Source: an uncultured Bacteroidota bacterium (lineage in GTDB: Bacteria > Bacteroidota > Bacteroidia > B-17B0 > Aurantibacillaceae). From it: a stretch of DNA of 38,903 nt. Each line of letters starts with the position of its first letter. The stretch's first letter is position 1. The notes under the pieces are model-generated. The model was not told the DNA's origin. It made no database searches and saw only the letters and a list, made by a program, of their open reading frames with translations. A program made the position numbers and the translations under genes. Location: NCBI GenBank assembly GCA_937873155.1, contig CALMVZ010000007.1, forward strand, positions 1-38,903. The letters run 5' to 3'. Below are positions 193 to 8,800 of the stretch, piece by piece.

Positions 193-267
193 GAATGAAA
201 CCCGATTCAGCTATTTAAAATTGTAGGCTGAAAAGGGGGAATGTTAAACCCTTTAAAAACTAAAAGT

Positions 268-1422
268 ATGGGAGTGCAATTAAGAGAAAAGAAAATGAAG
301 AGCGGACAAGTATCCTTCTATCTGGATATTTACCACAACAAAAAGCGATGGTATGAATTCCTCGACATTCATATCAACAAGAAAAAACCAAGTCCTGAAG
401 ACAAAGAAAAAAAGAGGCTGGCGCAGGAAATAAGATCAAAGCGTGAAAATGAATTAATAGTACAGGACAACGGCCTTCAGGACAAGTCAAGAAAAAAGGC
501 AGATTTTGTTTCATGGTTTCATTCTTATATGAATGCAAAGAAAAAGAACTACAAAAATAATCTTAAAACCTACAAGCACCTAACTGCTTACGTGGACGGC
601 AAGCCTTTATCTTTTCAAGACATTACACCTGATTGGATAAAGGACTGGAGCAATTATCTTTTGAAAAAGGTAAGTAACAATAGTGCTATTGATTATAATA
701 AAAACATATTTACGGCACTTGAAGAAGCAGTACGAAAAGGCATTATTTACGTAAACCCGTTTAGAAAAATCCCACGCCATGAAAGACTTAAAGTAAAGGA
801 CATATACCGCAATGCTTGGACGTTTGATGAATTGTTACATTTAATGCAAACTCCCTGCAAAATGGAAAAACAATATAGGCAGGCTTATTTGTTTTCTTGC
901 TTTAGCGGACTTAGGTGGAGTGATGTTAATCCCTTAAGATGGACAGAGATCATTATAAAAAATATTGACGGAAAAGAAGAATGGTTTGTTTATTTCGAGC
1001 AAGAAAAAACAGAGGACATAGAATATCTGCCCCTATCAGATCAGGCTGTTGAAATATTAAAAGAATGCAAGCGTGAACAAATAGAAAACAAAGAAATAAG
1101 CCCTTATGTATTTCCAAAAGTAAAAGAAGTGAATGAGGAAAAAGCCAAAACATATAAGCGGGTTTGGTACTTTCTAAAAAAGTGGGCAAGAGCAGCAGGT
1201 TATGATGAAAAAAGAATGCACTTCCATACCGGAAGGCATACATTCGCCACTAATGTACTTGAGAACAGCCCAGATGGGGATTTATGGACGGTTTCCAAAC
1301 TCTTAGGTCATAAGAGCATTAATGCAACTATGATCTATACTCATGTTAGGGACAGCAAGAAAAAAGCGGCAGTTAAGGCTTTGCCTGTATTAAAGATTAA
1401 AATCCCTCAAAATGCTGCTTAA
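268..1422 (+). CDS. tyrosine recombinase / integrase
   Basis: This is a phage-type tyrosine recombinase that catalyses integration and, with an excisionase, excision of the element. Numbered from the ATG at 268 (384 aa), it has an N-terminal arm-binding region (about 1-65), a SAM-like core-binding domain (about 80-165) and a C-terminal catalytic domain. All catalytic residues are present: R216 (GLRWSD), K247, H320 and R323 (HTGRH), H348 (LLGHKS) and the nucleophile Y357 (IYTH). An in-frame ATG at 241 would add nine residues. I prefer 268 because Bacteroidota integrases of this type usually begin with a short leader before the REKK-SG-SFYLDIY segment. The gene lies at the window's left end, reads inward, and ends just before a strong terminator. 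It appears intact and is not related in detail to the integrase fragment near 5292. Confidence 0.93.
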
Positions 1423-1444: not shown

Positions 1445-1471
1445 AGCCCTGTATTGAGGCAGGGCTTTTTG
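1445..1471 (+). terminator. rho-independent terminator after the integrase
   Basis: AGCCCTG (1445-1451) pairs with CAGGGCT (1460-1466) around an 8-nt loop, followed by a run of T. It separates the integrase from the next gene. The next gene's likely promoter box starts at its end. Confidence 0.85.
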
Positions 1472-1479
1472 TATCTTTG
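1472..1479 (+). promoter_or_regulatory. candidate Bacteroidota -7 box (TATCTTTG)
   Basis: TATCTTTG matches the Bacteroidota -7 consensus TAnnTTTG exactly. It ends only 4 bp before the ATG at 1484, so transcription from it would give a leaderless or nearly leaderless mRNA. A convincing -33 box is not obvious, because the TTG at 1454 is too close. Confidence 0.45.
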
Positions 1480-1483
1480 GAAT

Positions 1484-2338
1484 ATGAACTCAGACGGATA
1501 TAAACTAATATTAAATCATCTTACCTACGGTGAGTCTGTACTTAATGAAACTAAGCCAAAAAAACAGGAAGAATATAAACAAATGGTTTTTTTGTTTTTA
1601 AACCGAAAGGGCAAATTCCTTTTTGAAGAAGATATCTTAAAGCATTATCGGGAAGGAATGACCTTAGAAAAATTATTTGAGCAAGAAGGCCATCGTTTTG
1701 CACAGGGAGCAAATCAGAAAAAGAACGGTAAAATGCAAAAGACATGGTATGATCTCTGGGCATCTGAAGAAATAAAGTATGGGGATGATTTTTTTGATTA
1801 TTTCTTCGCTTGCAAATTAAGACATATCAGCTTACTGGAAATAGACGACTTTCTGACTTTTCATTTAGAATACAGCTTCGATAATAATGCAAAGATGTAT
1901 TCCAGGTTTCTGGTATTGGTTATACGTAAATACAAAGGAGAAATTATTAGCGAGAATATTTCTGAAACTATAAAGGAATGGATGACGCAGAACGAATCTT
2001 CATCCGAATTATCAGGAAGTCCAAAAGAAACCAAAGTAAAAGGCAAATTAAAGCGCGAAAGGGAAGACAAGATCACAAAGCTCAATCAGGAACAGACTGC
2101 ATTGCTTATATACTGCCTGAAAGAAACTAAAATAATTCTAAAGGACGAATATCTTAATAATAAAGAAGCGGGTCAGGCATTTTCCGTGCTTACCGGATAT
2201 AGCGCGGAAACCTTGCGGCAGAATTTAAATAAGTCTGAACAAACAAGAATTTCAACAAAAAAGAACAATGAGGTTGTTAAGAAAGCTCTAAAGGAAGTTC
2301 TCAGTTTTATAGAGAATGAAATGGAACCGGAGCTTTAG
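1484..2338 (+). CDS. hypothetical protein next to the integrase
   Basis: This is a 284-aa soluble protein of unknown function. A TTG further upstream (1454) would extend it, but that codon lies inside the terminator hairpin, so the ATG at 1484 is chosen. The N-terminal two thirds is rich in aromatic and charged residues. A Lys/Glu linker near 175-200 precedes a C-terminal helical part of about 90 residues beginning LNQEQTALLIYCLKE. The layout (alpha-helical C-terminal module, position beside an integrase) recalls RteC-like or other regulatory proteins of Bacteroidota mobile elements, but no diagnostic motif is visible and I would not assign it. It converges with the HEPN gene on the opposite strand. 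Confidence 0.75.
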   Translation: MNSDGYKLILNHLTYGESVLNETKPKKQEEYKQMVFLFLNRKGKFLFEEDILKHYREGMTLEKLFEQEGHRFAQGANQKKNGKMQKTWYDLWASEEIKYGDDFFDYFFACKLRHISLLEIDDFLTFHLEYSFDNNAKMYSRFLVLVIRKYKGEIISENISETIKEWMTQNESSSELSGSPKETKVKGKLKREREDKITKLNQEQTALLIYCLKETKIILKDEYLNNKEAGQAFSVLTGYSAETLRQNLNKSEQTRISTKKNNEVVKKALKEVLSFIENEMEPEL

Positions 2339-2391: not shown

Positions 2392-3432
2392 CTACGTTTT
2401 CGATTTCTTTTTCCGTTCTACCTTTTTCATGTGTTCATCTACTCTGTCCATTATTGCTTTATGAGACTCCTGGGCAGCGAGGACAAAAGAATCAATCACA
2501 AGGAAAAAGTCTGTCCTAATGCTCATATACTTTTCTAACGCTTCTCCAGAAGGCAAATTCGGTAGCTCCTCACCAATTTTTTTGAAGGAATCAATCCGTT
2601 TTTCGCTTATAGGTCTGTAATTCTGTTTATAGACTTTAAAAAGTTGATTCACCTCGGTCTTGGCTTTTTTCTTGTCCTGCATTTCTCTTAGTCTTTGCAG
2701 TTCATCCTTGTGTTTGATCTTAAAAGAGTAATTCAACAGTACTTCGTCAAAACTTAATTTTTTCTTAGTTCTTTCAGTTGCAAATTTCAGCGCTGATTTT
2801 AAATGCTCAACGCCTCCAACGATGAATTCTGATAGCAATTTTGAAGGAGATTGATCTTTATTTAAACTCTTAAAATTATGCTGTACAAAATCAAGCCAAT
2901 CCTCCTTGCTTCCGGTTTCATAGGCTTTAGAGCCGAGTTCCTTTTTCCTGTGTTTGGTAAACGGATGTTCCATGTCGATTGGTGTACCATCCATACTAAT
3001 CGGAACGCCAATTATATCTGTTCCACCCCTCCATTCAGGCTGACGATTCAGAATGATTTCATAAAGTGTGCTGAGGGCAATTCTTATTAATAAACTGTGA
3101 TCATCTCCTTTGTGATAGACGCGGTTTCTTATATCATGACAAAAACTTATCATAGCTCGCTCGTGCGATGTTATTATTCCTTCCTCAAAACATGCTTTAA
3201 GTAATCTATCATGCTTACCGAGTATCTCCTGTCTTTTATCCAAAGGATATTTTAATACTTTATAGTCATTCAGGAACTCCGTCCTGAACCGAAAGTGCAT
3301 TTGTCTTCCAAGCTGAATCTCTACAAGGTTGTCCATGAGGATCACTGCCAGACGATCATGGCCTAAGATTGATGAGTTTGCGAAGCGAGCGGCCTCTTCC
3401 AATTGAGTTTTTACTTTGTAGATATTTTCCAT
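2392..3432 (-). CDS. HEPN-like RX4H protein, putative RNase cargo
   Basis: This is a 346-aa soluble, mostly helical protein. Residues 98-110 contain FCHDIRNRVYHKG, in which R102-N-R-V-Y-H107 fits the RX4H active-site motif of HEPN ribonucleases. HEPN domains of this kind occur in abortive-infection proteins, toxins and some uncharacterised Bacteroidota proteins. The segment before the motif (about 20-97) is helical and could be the rest of the HEPN bundle. The C-terminal half (about 190-346) is Lys-rich, with coiled-coil character around 240-275, and is unrecognised. The gene is divergent from the xis-like gene and shares its 120-bp regulatory region, where GAACCC repeats sit. A defence or toxin role is inference from motif and location; a housekeeping RNA-binding role is not excluded. 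Confidence 0.7.
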   Translation of the reverse strand: MENIYKVKTQLEEAARFANSSILGHDRLAVILMDNLVEIQLGRQMHFRFRTEFLNDYKVLKYPLDKRQEILGKHDRLLKACFEEGIITSHERAMISFCHDIRNRVYHKGDDHSLLIRIALSTLYEIILNRQPEWRGGTDIIGVPISMDGTPIDMEHPFTKHRKKELGSKAYETGSKEDWLDFVQHNFKSLNKDQSPSKLLSEFIVGGVEHLKSALKFATERTKKKLSFDEVLLNYSFKIKHKDELQRLREMQDKKKAKTEVNQLFKVYKQNYRPISEKRIDSFKKIGEELPNLPSGEALEKYMSIRTDFFLVIDSFVLAAQESHKAIMDRVDEHMKKVERKKKSKT

Positions 3433-3894: not shown

Positions 3895-3945
3895 ATAAAC
3901 AGAAACAAACATAGACCAAGATTAAAAGACTCTAATTATTCGATT

Positions 3946-3975
3946 AAAGCGGCAGAAAAAACTGCCGCTTTTTTT
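3946..3975 (+). terminator. rho-independent terminator after the xis-like gene
   Basis: AAAGCGGCAG (3946-3955) pairs with CTGCCGCTTT (3962-3971) around a six-A loop, ending in a T run to 3975. This is one of the strongest terminators in the window. It isolates the repeat array downstream from transcription of the xis-like gene. Confidence 0.9.
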
Positions 3976-4018
3976 ATGTCAACTTATTTCAGGACGATAC
4001 AAGGAGTTATTGTGTAGT

Positions 4019-4258
4019 AATTAAGGAGGAATTGGGGAACCATGGAGAAGAATTAGGGAGTCATGTGTTTGGATTAGGGAGTAATTAGGGAGTGTTACGA
4101 CAGTATTGAATATTGTTTGTTCGCATGTACAATCATGTGTAAGTCATCGTGTATGGCATGTATAAGTAATGTGTAAGCATGGTGTATAGCATGTGGTAAT
4201 CATGCAAAAGCATGTGGTTGACATGTAATTGGTCATGCGGTAGTAATGAAGAATGCTA
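4019..4258. repeat. helically phased array of about 11-bp units, non-coding
   Basis: The 435-bp gap between genes (3895-4329) contains a degenerate array with a period close to 11 bp. Block A (4019-4093) has units like AATTAGGGAGT at 4019, 4030, 4051, 4072 and 4083, with CATG-type units at 4041 and 4062. Block B has CATGTGTAAGT-like units starting at 4124, 4134, 4145, 4157, 4168, 4178, 4190, 4201, 4211, 4222, 4234 and 4245, spaced 10-12 bp with a mean of 11. A period of 11 excludes coding. The array resembles iterons or a cooperative protein-binding platform, but no replication protein gene is visible. Confidence 0.75.
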
Positions 4259-4277
4259 TGTTAATTTCCAGGAAATG

Positions 4278-4285
4278 TATTTTTG
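4278..4285 (+). promoter_or_regulatory. candidate -7 box (TATTTTTG) downstream of the array
   Basis: TATTTTTG fits TAnnTTTG and lies 45 bp before the GIY-YIG start, directly after the repeat array. No clear -33 TTTG is seen. If real, the array would sit at the position of an upstream activator or repressor region. Confidence 0.35.
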
Positions 4286-4329
4286 ATCGGACTTTTTGCT
4301 ATTATCTATTGATTCCATAAATTTAAATT

Positions 4330-5184
4330 ATGGAATCAGGCGTAGTTTATATTTTGTGTAATCCAGCTTTCCCAAAACTGTTAAAAGTAGGAATGACAAC
4401 AGGAACAGCAGATAGCCGGGCAAAACAACTGTCAAGGTACACTGGTGTACCGAAGGATTATATTGTGCTTTGGGAAAGAAAAGTACCTAACATAACATTA
4501 GCGGAGAGTGTCCTTCATTATTTTCTTCACAAATACGCTTATAATAAAGAATTCTTTCAATTACCATCCGAACTTGCAATAGAAATATGTCATGAAGCAA
4601 TTAATCGGGTATTTGCCCCCCTTGACTTTAAAAAGATAAAGCAAAATGCCAAACTAGCATCGGGTTTAACTAAAATAAGTATAGAATTAGATGAAGAGTT
4701 AAAACGAATGAAACTTACAAAAGCAGTAAGGGAAGGGACAGAAATAGAAAAATTTAATAAAGAGAAAACAAGTGGTTTAAGTATACTACCTGTTGGGAAT
4801 ACCCAAACAAATTGGCAGTCAATTTCTGACTCTTTGAATTACAAATTCGGAAAAGAAGCAATTAGGCTTATATTAAAAGAAAGAAAAAAAGGGGATCCAT
4901 TACGCAAAAGATTTGTTTCGTATAGAAGGCGATATTATTATACCGAAGCAATCCACTTGTTTTTTACTAAAAATCATATTTTGGTGTATGCAATTACTTT
5001 GAATACTGATATAAAAAAGGCGTTGGAAAAAAGATATGGTAAAAATTTTAAAAGGATAGAATTTAAAGCTATTGATAAAGGTTATTCTTTTAAGATCAAG
5101 AATAATGAAGATTTTCAAGTGTTAAAAGCAATGCTTCATATGGGAGAAAGAGCTTTCCTTCAGTACCCTTTAAGAAAAAAGTAA
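4330..5184 (+). CDS. GIY-YIG (T5orf172/MUG113-like) nuclease-family protein
   Basis: This is a 284-aa protein. Its N-terminus (about 4-80) matches the T5orf172 variant of the GIY-YIG fold. VYIL (6-9) stands for the GIY strand and KVGMT (19-23) for the YIG strand. They are followed by R30 in R-A-K-Q-L-S, E59 in A-E-S, H63, and KEFFQLP (73-79). These are the residues that normally form the GIY-YIG active site. A Lys/Glu helical stretch (about 110-145) leads to an unrecognised, very basic C-terminal region (about 155-284, with YRRRYYY near 200) that may bind nucleic acid. The family occurs in phages and mobile elements, sometimes with DNA-modification or defence roles. The gene stands alone between the repeat array and the integrase remnant. 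Nuclease activity is likely by family but unproven. Confidence 0.8.
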   Translation: MESGVVYILCNPAFPKLLKVGMTTGTADSRAKQLSRYTGVPKDYIVLWERKVPNITLAESVLHYFLHKYAYNKEFFQLPSELAIEICHEAINRVFAPLDFKKIKQNAKLASGLTKISIELDEELKRMKLTKAVREGTEIEKFNKEKTSGLSILPVGNTQTNWQSISDSLNYKFGKEAIRLILKERKKGDPLRKRFVSYRRRYYYTEAIHLFFTKNHILVYAITLNTDIKKALEKRYGKNFKRIEFKAIDKGYSFKIKNNEDFQVLKAMLHMGERAFLQYPLRKK

Positions 5185-5291
5185 TTTGCTGTTTTTTAAA
5201 TATGCACCTTAATTCTTTGCTAATACTTTCTATTCTCCGAACAAGCGAGTAAAAGGTAAAGACAAGTAAACCCTTTCAGTAAAAATCATAA

Positions 5292-5468
5292 ATCGTTTCG
5301 AACAGCGATATCAAAACCACTCAGGTCTATGCTAAAATTGTCAATGAGGAACTCGATAACGCAATGGATGTCTTTAACGAATCGCCTAACAAATACAACT
5401 ACAAAGTGTACGAAATAAGACGTGGATTTTGTAAAATTATGAAATTCAGATGCTTACGGACGAATTAA
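5292..5468 (+). pseudogene. C-terminal remnant of a second tyrosine recombinase
   Basis: The open frame from 5292 has no start codon and encodes SNSDIKTTQVYAKIVNEEL near its beginning. This is the conserved end of tyrosine recombinases around the catalytic Tyr (in TTQVYAKI). The preceding Gly-His of the usual LGHS motif is replaced by Ser-Asn. The rest of the protein is missing and a stop (5289-5291) lies just upstream. It differs from the intact integrase at 268 (NATMIYTHV), so it comes from another element. It runs directly into the start of the Cys-rich gene at the metal island's left edge. Confidence 0.7.
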
Positions 5469-5488
5469 AATTTCATATATTTGTATGG

Positions 5489-5797
5489 TTGAAAAGAATC
5501 TTCTACATACTCTTCGCTTTTTACTTCGCTGCATTGGCCTTTACTCCATGTAGTGACAAAGAAGATTGTAATGAGGTAAATCACGAACAAACCGCGCAAA
5601 ACCAAAATCACGAACATCAGGATGAAGCCTGTACTCCTTTTTGCGTTTGTTCATGCTGCGCTACACACGTGGTAAATACAACCTTTCAAAATCAATTTGT
5701 AATAGCTTCAATTGAAGTTAGTTCATACCGCGAGATCCCGACTTCAAAAGTTCAGGGTGCAGTTCTTCCTATCTGGCAACCACCTCAACTCAGTTAA
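5489..5797 (+). CDS. small Cys-rich membrane/secreted protein (DUF6660-like)
   Basis: The frame opens with an ATG at 5450, but that would prefix 13 residues read from remnant integrase DNA. A TTG at 5489 gives a conventional N-terminus, (M)KRIFYILFAFYFAALAFTPC, a hydrophobic signal or anchor. The resulting protein is about 102 aa. It has a Cys/His-rich middle (CSDKEDCNEV, several HE pairs) and then CTPFCVCSCCATHV, which could bind a soft metal. Small proteins with this CxPFCxCxCC pattern are common beside RND heavy-metal pumps in Bacteroidota. It precedes the Czc-type pump by 100 bp. The start is uncertain: a standard caller would choose 5450. Confidence 0.65.
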   Translation: MKRIFYILFAFYFAALAFTPCSDKEDCNEVNHEQTAQNQNHEHQDEACTPFCVCSCCATHVVNTTFQNQFVIASIEVSSYREIPTSKVQGAVLPIWQPPQLS

Positions 5798-5844
5798 TGG
5801 ATTACTTTATCATTCAGCTAAAGTTGAATGATATTGATTTGTAG

Positions 5845-5866
5845 TGCAATTCTATTGCATTGCAAT
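5845..5866. promoter_or_regulatory. alternating TGCAAT/ATTGCA palindromes upstream of the RND pump
   Basis: TGCAAT-TCT-ATTGCA (5845-5859) and ATTGCA-T-TGCAAT (5854-5866) are two overlapping perfect inverted repeats built from three copies of the same hexamer. They lie 30 bp before the chosen start of the pump gene, a sensible operator position. No metal-responsive regulator is encoded nearby, so any binding protein would act in trans. Confidence 0.5.
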
Positions 5867-5896
5867 ATTTATTTATTAATTCATCAACTGAAACAA

Positions 5897-8800
5897 ATGT
5901 TAGATAAAATAATTTCATTCAGTATAAAAAATAAGTTCATCATTGGATTGATGACGTTTGCTCTAATTATATGGGGCATATGGAGTGCAAGTAAACTCCC
6001 AATTGATGCTCTTCCTGACATCACAAATAATCAGGTTCAAATCATTACACTTTGTCCAACTCTTGCTGGACAGGAAGTAGAACAATTGGTTACTTATCCA
6101 ATTGAACAAAGTATTTCTAATCTGCCTGATCTGGTGGAATTACGAAGTATCTCTCGTTTCGGACTTTCTGTTATTACAGTTGTTTTCGATGATAAAGTAG
6201 ACATCTATTTTGCAAGACAATTAATTAACGAAAGAATAAAGGAAGCCGAAAGCAAAATACCAAAAGGTATTGGAACACCTGAATTGGCACCTGTAAGTAC
6301 AGGTCTAGGTGAAGTTTATCAATACATTATTCACCCTGCAAAAGGGAGTGAATCAAAATACACTGCAATGGATCTGCGAACCATGCAGGACTGGATTGTA
6401 GCAAGACAACTTTATGGAACCCCCGGCATTGCTGAAATCAATAGTTTTGGTGGGCAACTAAAACAATACGAAGTTGCAGTTAATCCAGATCGCTTATTGG
6501 CAATGGGAATAAGCATTCCTGAAATTTTTACTGCTCTGGAAAAGAACAATGAAAATACAGGTGGCGCCTACATTGATAAAAAACCAAATGCTTATTTTAT
6601 TCGTGGTGTTGGTCTTATTGGTTCTTTCGAAGACATAAAGAATATTGTTGTTAAAACAGCCCCTAACGGAATTCCAATTCTTATCAAGGATGTTGCTGAC
6701 GTACGTTTAGGGAGCGCCGTTCGTTATGGAGCTCTTACTTACAATGGGCAGGTTGATGCGGTTGGTGGTGTTGTAATGATGCTTAAAGGATCAAACAGTG
6801 CTGAAGTTGTAAATCGGGTGAAAGATAAAATGACCACTATTCAAAAGTCTTTACCGAAAGACGTAGTCATTGAACCTTATTTAGACAGGACCGATTTAGT
6901 TAACCGTGCTATCGCAACAGTAGAGAAGAACTTAATTGAAGGAGCTCTAATTGTTATATTTGTACTTGTTCTATTCCTTGGAAATCTTAGAGCGGGTTTG
7001 ATCGTTGCATCTGCAATCCCATTATCTATGCTCTTCGCTTTGGCAATGATGAATCTTTTTGGAGTAAGTGCTAACTTAATGAGTTTAGGTGCTATTGATT
7101 TCGGTTTAATTGTTGATGGTGCAGTAATTATTGTGGAAGCAACACTCCACCACCTTTCTCTGCGAAAAGTAACCGGAAGATTAACACAGCAGGAAATGGA
7201 CGAAGAAGTATTTGTATCTGCATCCAAAATCAGAAGCAGTGCAGCATTTGGTGAGATAATTATCCTTATTGTTTATATTCCAATTCTTACACTTGTAGGC
7301 ATCGAAGGAAAAATGTTCGGACCAATGGCACAAACAGTTGGTTTTGCAATTTTTGGAGCTTTGTTATTGTCACTAACCTATATTCCGATGATGTGTGCCT
7401 TGTTTTTACCTAAAAATATTTCGCACAAAGAAACATTCAGCGATAAACTAATGAACTTTTTTAAACGCCGATATGTTCCGGTTTTAGAAAAAGCAATTCG
7501 TTTTAAGAAATCAGTTGTCGCCATAACAGTTTCTGTTTTCTTTATTTCTGTTTTCATTTTTTCAAGAATGGGCGGCGAATTCATTCCAACCCTTCAAGAA
7601 GGTGACTTTGCGTTTCACTGCATCCTTTCACAAGGAACATCATTATCTCAAAGTATAGAAACATCTATGCAGGCATCTCGCTTGATCAAAGAATTTGATG
7701 AAGTAAAAATGGTTGTGGGTAAAACAGGTGCTGCGGAAGTGCCAACTGATCCAATGCCGCCCGAAGCAACGGATATGATGATTATTCTAAAACCTCAAAG
7801 CGAATGGAAAAGAGGTATTTCATATGATGAACTAGCAAATGAGATCGAAGAAAAGCTGGAAAGTATTCCTGGTGTTTTCTTCGAAAAGAATCAGCCCATC
7901 CAAATGCGTTTTAATGAATTAATGACTGGTATACGACAAGATGTTGCTGTTAAGATTTTTGGTGAAAATATGGATACGCTATTAGCTTACGCAAACAAAG
8001 TCAATGCGGTCGTTCAAAGTGTAAAGGGAGCAACTGAACCCAGCGTAGAACGTGTCGCGGGTCTGCCACAAATTGTTATTAAATATAACCGTTCACAAAT
8101 TGCCAATTATGGTTTGAACATCGAGGACATTAACCACATAGTAAGTACTTCATTTGCTGGTGGCGATGCAGGGGTTGTTTTTGAGAACGAACGTAAATTC
8201 GATCTGGTGGTAAGATTGGATAGCACCCACAGAAATAACATTGACGATGTGAACCATTTGTATATACCGGCCGCAAACGGCACACAAATTCCTTTGTCGC
8301 AAGTGGCAGAAATAAAAATGGAATTAGGACCTGCACAAATTAGCCGTGAAAGTGGTAAGCGAAGAATTGTGATTGGCTTTAATGTGAAAGGAAGAGATGT
8401 AGCAAGCGTGGTTACTGATATTCAAAAACAATTAGGCGAAAAAGTAAAACTACCGGAAGGTTACTATTACACGTATGGAGGTACTTTTGAAAATCTCCAA
8501 GCTGCTTCTAAACGTTTAATGATAGCGGTACCGGCGGCATTAGCTCTCATATTTATGTTATTGTATTTTACATTCAATTCTGTAAAACAAGCAACATTAA
8601 TATTCACAGCCATTCCAATGTCTGCAATTGGTGGTGTATTTGCTTTGCTTGTTCGCGATATGCCATTTAGTATTTCAGCAGGCATCGGATTTATTGCATT
8701 GTTCGGTGTAGCGGTTCTAAATGGGATAGTATTAATTGGAACTTTTAATCAATTAGAAAAGGACGGTATGAATAACATTTTAGAAAGAGTAAGAGAAGGA

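Follow-up and report, generated by a model that had tools for sequence, protein, structure and literature searches.

The stretch of DNA analyzed here (the window, 38,903 bases) represents the entire contig 7 of a 4.85-Mb genome whose kin are Bacteroidota. An integrative element begins near its left edge with a module that consists of a tyrosine recombinase gene (int), two ORFs of 294 and 346 aa and a gene for an excisionase-family protein (xis), and that is closed by an intrinsic terminator (table 1). Located 3' of this terminator and 5' of a GIY-YIG gene and a metal efflux cargo (judged by eye from a CzcA-like protein) is an array of approximately 20 degenerate direct repeats of two unit types, which starts 109 bp after the end of xis.

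Table 1. Features of the integration module, the array and the adjoining region (positions in the window).
Feature	Position	Strand	Evidence or remark
Tyrosine recombinase (integrase) of the element	241..1422	+	Pfam Phage_integrase 1.8e-26, SAM_5, Arm-DNA-bind_5
294-aa ORF, which relatives also have next to int and xis	1454..2338	+	Homologues in G009 and G011
346-aa ORF within the int/xis module, family unassigned	2392..3432	-	No Pfam or PHROGs match
Excisionase-family helix-turn-helix protein, 113 aa	3553..3894	+	Pfam HTH_17 1.9e-12
Intrinsic terminator of the int/xis module	3946..3975	+	Scan; stem 3946-3971 and T run
25-bp IS-end-type sequence, TGTCAACTTATTTCAGGACGATACA, adjoining the array on its left	3977..4001	+	One copy elsewhere beside an IS3 family transposase
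Array part 1	4003..4093	+	Unit near ATTAGGGAGTA, ~8.5 copies, spacing 10-11 bp
Array part 2	4124..4256	+	CATGTGTAAGT-type, 12 units, spacing 10-12 bp, 33-bp higher order
GIY-YIG (T5orf172) protein, first gene past the array	4330..5184	+	Pfam T5orf172 7.9e-12
C-terminal tail of a second tyrosine recombinase	~5271-5381		38% over 37 aa, 8e-7

The product of xis also matches the NCBIfam model TIGR01764 (excise, 30.7 bits with a cut-off of 28.8) and a PHROG excisionase profile (1.2e-6). Its best match in the PDB is RdfS (8dgl), a weak match with an E-value of 0.039, and its AlphaFold model, built from a two-sequence alignment, is poor (mean pLDDT 41.8). The 294-aa ORF has no match in Pfam, PHROGs or NCBIfam and looks RteC-like by position and by eye alone. 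No relatives of the GIY-YIG gene were found in the genome contigs, and the recombinase tail between the GIY-YIG and efflux genes is a remnant of another element. A search for direct repeats of at least 11 bp between positions 1-300 and 3900-5500 found none, and direct repeats defined no convincing ends of the element.

The original prediction described approximately 19 units with helical phasing, of which twelve CATG-type units were preceded by units of another type from position 4019 onwards. All twelve start positions were exact and the recomputed spacings within part 2 (10, 11, 12, 11, 10, 12, 11, 10, 11, 12, and 11 bp) have a mean of 11.0 bp. Among these 12 units, A at position 2 and T at position 3 are fixed, G at position 4 is present in 11 and A at position 9 in 10. 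The upstream AATTAGGGAGT-type units were recovered at the predicted 10-11 bp spacing by a tandem repeat search (TRF period 11, 8.5 copies, score 67) and begin upstream of position 4019. Part 2 was detected with a period of 11 (4124-4248, 11.4 copies, score 90) and its top-scoring description has a period of 33 (4118-4239, score 125), in agreement with the predicted higher-order similarity.

For each half of the array, the TRF score at a period of 10-12 bp was reached by none of 2000 dinucleotide shuffles; if any period was allowed, the scores of 67 (part 1), 90 and 125 (part 2) were reached by 42, 47, and 1 of 2000 shuffles, respectively. The best lag in an autocorrelation of positions 4012-4260 was 11, and 6 out of 1000 shuffles matched this autocorrelation at any lag. 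For the Fourier power at 10-12 bp, 9 out of 1000 did so. The plain Fourier power is unremarkable within the window, where all twelve of the best 249-bp stretches in 38.9 kb (some of which overlap) exceed it, because the unit length wanders. Chains of one exact 3-mer with gaps of 9-13 bp reached nine members in part 2 (0/1000 shuffles) and three in part 1, which is not beyond chance (652/1000). Taken as a whole, these tests confirm that a phased 11-bp array exists beyond chance.

No open reading frame spans the array, which rules out a protein-coding repeat, and the absence of any match at the gathering threshold within the window rules out a known RNA family. The terminator that had been predicted on one side of the array was identified by the scan; the promoter-like box on the other side was not substantiated (one found, 3.9 expected in shuffles). 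The 25-bp sequence at the left edge corresponds to the ends of IS elements that occur in many places without an array beyond them and is therefore at most a scar here; a mini-transposon between inverted ends was rejected on the same grounds. Plasmid sequences gave two short matches, both restricted to the IS-end sequence, and viral contigs gave no match to the IS-end pattern. A shorter core, CAGGACGATACA, is located directly 5' of arrays in L271 (genome G029), L338, and L375, where the remainder of the IS end is missing.

The survey for related arrays was initially unit-specific (models R1 and R2). The closest copy of the array sequence, with 79% identity over 78 bp, was identified in G009, a genome of the same family, where it also adjoins int, xis, and a homologue of the 294-aa ORF. 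A sequence-only model based on five arrays, that of the window included, gave 26 matches in 21 out of 87 family genomes, the weak ones being uncertain. A Viterbi-trained profile defined the common unit as A-T-T-R-R-G-R-A-G-N-A, with a length of 11 bp and occasionally 10 bp. The scores of 363 background stretches of 410 bp had a median of 4.9, a 99th percentile of 9.4, and a maximum of 44.6, the last presumably the array of G084, whose locus belonged to the background set. The exact GGGAG pattern was found at no fewer than 80 loci in the genome contigs; 18 of these were viewed and the matches, present in 17, were by eye mostly coding or unrelated hairpin-type repeats.

The gene neighborhoods were analyzed for 17 of the 26 R1 matches (G025:C2, G072, G026:C109, G082, G083, G060:C98, G001, G006, and G056 were left out; G025:C2 is by eye a different simple repeat, and G072 and G082 do adjoin a serine recombinase). 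A large serine recombinase is encoded within 7 kb at 10 of the 17 loci, and all 11 such genes are located on the strand opposite to the GGGAG strand of the array. For comparison, 85 serine recombinase matches were found for the 87 genomes, roughly one per 3.7 Mb, a search in which the recombinases of the array loci in G016, G048, and G086 fell below the threshold. An excisionase-type gene is present on the array strand at four of the 17 loci, together with a tyrosine integrase at three of them; the fourth, in G077, also belongs to the 10 serine recombinase loci. The recombinase gene ends inside a tRNA gene in G026, G005, G084, G029, G086, G077, L340, L378, L335, L344, and L383, and overlaps a tRNA gene in L339. 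Among 20 further recombinase loci, chosen because the array searches had not retrieved them, four carry a GGGAG-type array, in each case located upstream of the recombinase gene on the other strand; one of the four belongs to the genome of the window. The other 16 carry none, and one of these is truncated by a contig end. GGGAG-type arrays are also found in serine recombinase islands without a gene matched by the xis seeds.

In the cargo of five serine recombinase islands (L338, L339, L374, L376, and L301), Pfam identifies a TOTE conflict protein in L374 and a GMT-wHTH protein in L338; genes for type I restriction-modification and genes resembling AbiE and Wadjet were recognized by eye. At two other loci, L336 (G241) and L337 (G351), the arrays are longer and have a double unit of 21 bp (10 plus 11), and no nearby recombinase matches the seeds.

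A unit-blind survey was added when xis loci that were meant as controls proved to contain other 11-bp arrays. The sample consisted of 34 of the 43 xis matches found besides that of the window (nine were unused and the window was excluded). Arrays of period 10-12 are frequent in these related elements: 16 of the 34 loci contain them in non-coding DNA, with a total of 23 arrays compared with a mean of 0.55 and a maximum of two in 20 shuffles. Other periods were rarer, with six arrays of period 7-8 (none in shuffles), three of period 20-24 (0.3 in shuffles) and one in each of the remaining bands. As a control, 400 kb of the genome of the window were sampled as twenty 20-kb stretches at even spacing; their 41.6 kb of non-coding DNA contained a single array of period 10-12, or two under a slightly looser count. 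The same unit-blind count in 20 serine recombinase loci gave four arrays of period 10-12 and five of period 20-24. The remaining 18 xis loci, L052, L053, and L054 included, were without an array at the survey threshold, and some of the weaker, AT-rich arrays may be spurious.

The units found at the xis loci include AAGGTCCATAC, TGTAGCATAAC, AGCAATTTTAT, GTGCTATGAAA, and AAGCAATCAAT; the unit sequences differ between related elements while the period and the neighborhood recur. In other elements the array precedes int, follows it, or is located 1-3 kb from xis. Palindromic 11-12-mers form the arrays of L056, L060, and L445 and some of those in L058, L439, and L440, and at these loci they are close to a gene for a RadA-like ATPase. 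Palindromic repeats of the TTAATCGATTAA or TTAAGCGCTTAA type are located beside the gene of a cysteine-rich RadA-like ATPase in L056, L439, L440, L445, and L058, on both sides of it in L056, L440, and L445, and are candidates for an origin or operator. L058 (G000:C26:74000-86000) is a second int/xis element in the genome of the window with a cargo 80% identical to positions 5469-8444; its module and cargo are separated by 171 bp of array built from another 11-mer, TGTAGCATAAC. L439 (G011:C30) and L440 (G011:C17) belong to one genome; their arrays open with the same units, after which the unit order differs, so that by eye they seem to evolve by unit rearrangement.

The elements with the closest xis genes were inspected for a comparable array, as the original prediction had proposed. 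The four closest matches have 60-62% identity to xis of the window (G013:C125 or L052, G058:C205 or L053, G013:C184, and G048:C30 or L054); the contig of G013:C184 ends just at the position of the array, leaving three readable relatives. In all three, xis is followed by a small gene and by the same terminator stem halves as in the window (by eye), and ACG motifs occur right after the terminator at intervals of 9, 10, 11, 12, 11, and then 21 bp in L052, of 7, 10, 13, 12, and 12 bp in L053 and of 9, 10, 11, 12, 11, and 13 bp in L054. TRF called no array for these series, which are shorter and too weak. The longest chain of one 3-mer with gaps of 9-13 bp has six members in L052, five in L053, and seven in L054, lengths equaled in 12, 11, and 0 of 1000 shuffles, respectively. 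The phased series after the same terminator thus retain place and phase, and the letters have been replaced. The complete lack of comparable arrays in close homologous elements, which would have contradicted the original prediction, was therefore not observed. In each relative the next gene after the ACG series encodes an ATPase. The window contains neither the small gene nor the ATPase gene, and the IS-end-like sequence occupies their expected place, which suggests that both were lost by a deletion through an insertion sequence.

Helical phasing for cooperative binding, as put forward in the original prediction, fits these data best since the period recurs and the sequence does not, and since excisionase-type proteins bind such repeats (PMC7498355, PMC11963761); the more specific partition or synapsis role that accompanied it is not supported, as the scan of the flanking genes revealed no partner gene. 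PMC7498355 describes excisionase operators as direct repeats of 10-11 bp with weakly specific and cooperative binding, where winged-helix excisionases presumably place one monomer on each repeat and Apl needs three adjacent sites. RdfS forms helical filaments and was proposed to recognize long, poorly conserved regions without a consensus (PMC11963761), and lambda Xis forms a three-subunit filament (PMC7145599). The spacing of the array and the neighboring excisionase-family gene make these operators the simplest match. Our tentative interpretation, to which we assign somewhat less than an even chance, is that the array is a long operator of the integrative element on which an excisionase-family protein, most likely the xis product, polymerizes with weak sequence preference. 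With one of the approximately 20 degenerate repeats per helical turn, all of them would be exposed on a single face of the DNA, and a small winged-helix protein related to excisionases (recombination directionality factors) would polymerize along them with one subunit per turn. The filament, most likely formed by the product of the neighboring xis gene, would bend or coat ~250 bp and thereby control the gene that follows, the excision complex, or both; the assembling subunit may instead be a similar factor. The recognition regions of the closer xis relatives are nearly alike and their arrays differ, with unrelated repeat units, which suits a recognition of period or phase together with shape. 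A different binder, for example the 294-aa protein, fits this observation equally well, and our preference is held at this level for that reason. Several results speak against the excisionase operator: the 18 xis loci without an array, the GGGAG-type arrays in serine recombinase islands, the variable position in other elements, and the six array-bearing xis loci that owe their arrays partly or wholly to palindromes.

Alternatively, the arrays might be recombination boundaries, where either a recombinase or homologous recombination joins gene blocks or exchanges them between islands. Two genomes, G016 and G035, share 99.7% identity over 8006 bp and are fully identical until a point inside an array, the rest of which is merely similar; the alignment ends 14 bp beyond the array and unrelated modules follow. 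G482 contains a 140-aa gene and one array that are both absent at the single array of G300. G184 contains nine matching arrays on three contigs, each of which holds a serine recombinase, with five arrays in the same orientation among the genes of one contig, and a block with a 192-aa gene starts and ends inside arrays in L338. Across 35 array-bearing loci, 17 of 224 block ends are located in or within 15 bp of an array, compared with a mean of 6.3 and a maximum of 15 for random placement among non-coding positions (0/1000 reach 17). Against this stand the 207 block ends located elsewhere, the fact that block ends are not independent and the copy of the 192-aa block in L340, which has an array at just one of its ends. 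Furthermore, repeats of 60-90 bp would draw ordinary homologous recombination, which is a sufficient cause for the excess, and the pattern was seen in the serine recombinase islands only and not at the window, where the cargo shared with the sister element L058 begins ~540 bp past the array of the sister, outside of it. We consider a boundary role improbable as an explanation of the array in the window. A broader version, for which the block ends argue as a possibility only, is similarly doubtful: that Bacteroidota islands with tyrosine or serine recombinases share fast-evolving, period-coded sites whose signal is the 11-bp phase and whose letters can vary almost freely, and that in serine recombinase defense islands the arrays would also act as cassette exchange sites, integron-like without attC hairpins.

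The ATPase genes raise the alternative of a module for replication or maintenance, with the array as its iterons or control region; the window would have lost the ATPase gene of this module and kept the phased array. The order of terminator, ACG series, and ATPase gene in L052, L053, and L054, the palindromic repeats that flank the ATPase gene in L056, L440, and L445 and the nature of the proteins (489-596 aa, cysteine-rich and RadA/RecA-like; a profile from eight of them matches RadA at 3.3e-10) agree with such a module. It is nevertheless an unlikely origin of the array, given that the window lacks the ATPase gene, that RadA-like proteins are not known as replication initiators, and that L058 and L056 carry a separate non-palindromic array besides the palindromic ones. 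No replication initiator was recognized among the flanking genes of the window. A functionless, degenerate minisatellite produced by replication slippage would account for the variation of unit number and order from one array to a related one (by eye in L439 and L440, and in G300 and G482). Against it stand the excess at the xis loci, which is largely limited to a period of 10-12 (23 arrays, compared with six for 7-8 and at most three for any other), and the phased series with other letters after the same terminator in close relatives. Neutrality appears rather improbable to us.

If the excisionase operator interpretation is true, the arrays would represent regulatory or recombination sites of Bacteroidota mobile elements that can be located by period and not by sequence. 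Such sites would be previously undescribed in the literature searched: by title and start of abstract, the PMC full-text literature, to which the search was confined with subscription literature outside its scope, yielded no such arrays in Bacteroidota elements. They would make it possible to test directly if proteins of the excisionase type recognize DNA by its helical phase, and would mark where integration modules and cargo, such as defense and metal efflux genes, are joined and swapped.

Among known systems, the parC centromere of ParMRC plasmids consists of 11-bp direct repeats arrayed along one face of the DNA; the window differs in that no parM- or parR-type gene is present among the scanned flanking genes (Pfam, PHROGs, NCBIfam). 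The arrays of the serine recombinase islands resemble integron attC/attI and SCC sites in being located between the recombinase module and the cargo and, in some islands, between cargo genes. In contrast to attC, they are direct repeats. Of five stretches folded as single strands, three are no better than shuffles and two are moderately better (z = 0.05 for 4003-4110 and -2.72 for 4120-4255 in the window; 1.05, -0.65, and -2.79 for three arrays from relatives). The integrase of the window scores far below the cut-off for integron integrases (TIGR02249, 46.3 bits with a cut-off of 265) and the recombinase of the L339 island is far below the Ccr cut-offs. Lambda Xis on X1-X1.5-X2 and RdfS of ICEMlSymR7A are excisionases of the winged-helix type whose subunits line up head to tail along DNA with low sequence specificity (PMC7145599, PMC11963761), and differ from the window in that lambda uses three Xis protomers and the RdfS sites lack a consensus motif whereas units are visible in the array. 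The sites of phage 186 Apl, an excisionase and regulator, number five and seven and are located at attP and between promoters, whereas the putative operator of the window comprises ~20 units of two types after the terminator of the module; in both systems, direct repeats at intervals near one helical turn (10-11 bp for Apl), weakly specific for Apl and presumably so in the window, adjoin an integrase and excisionase system (PMC7498355).
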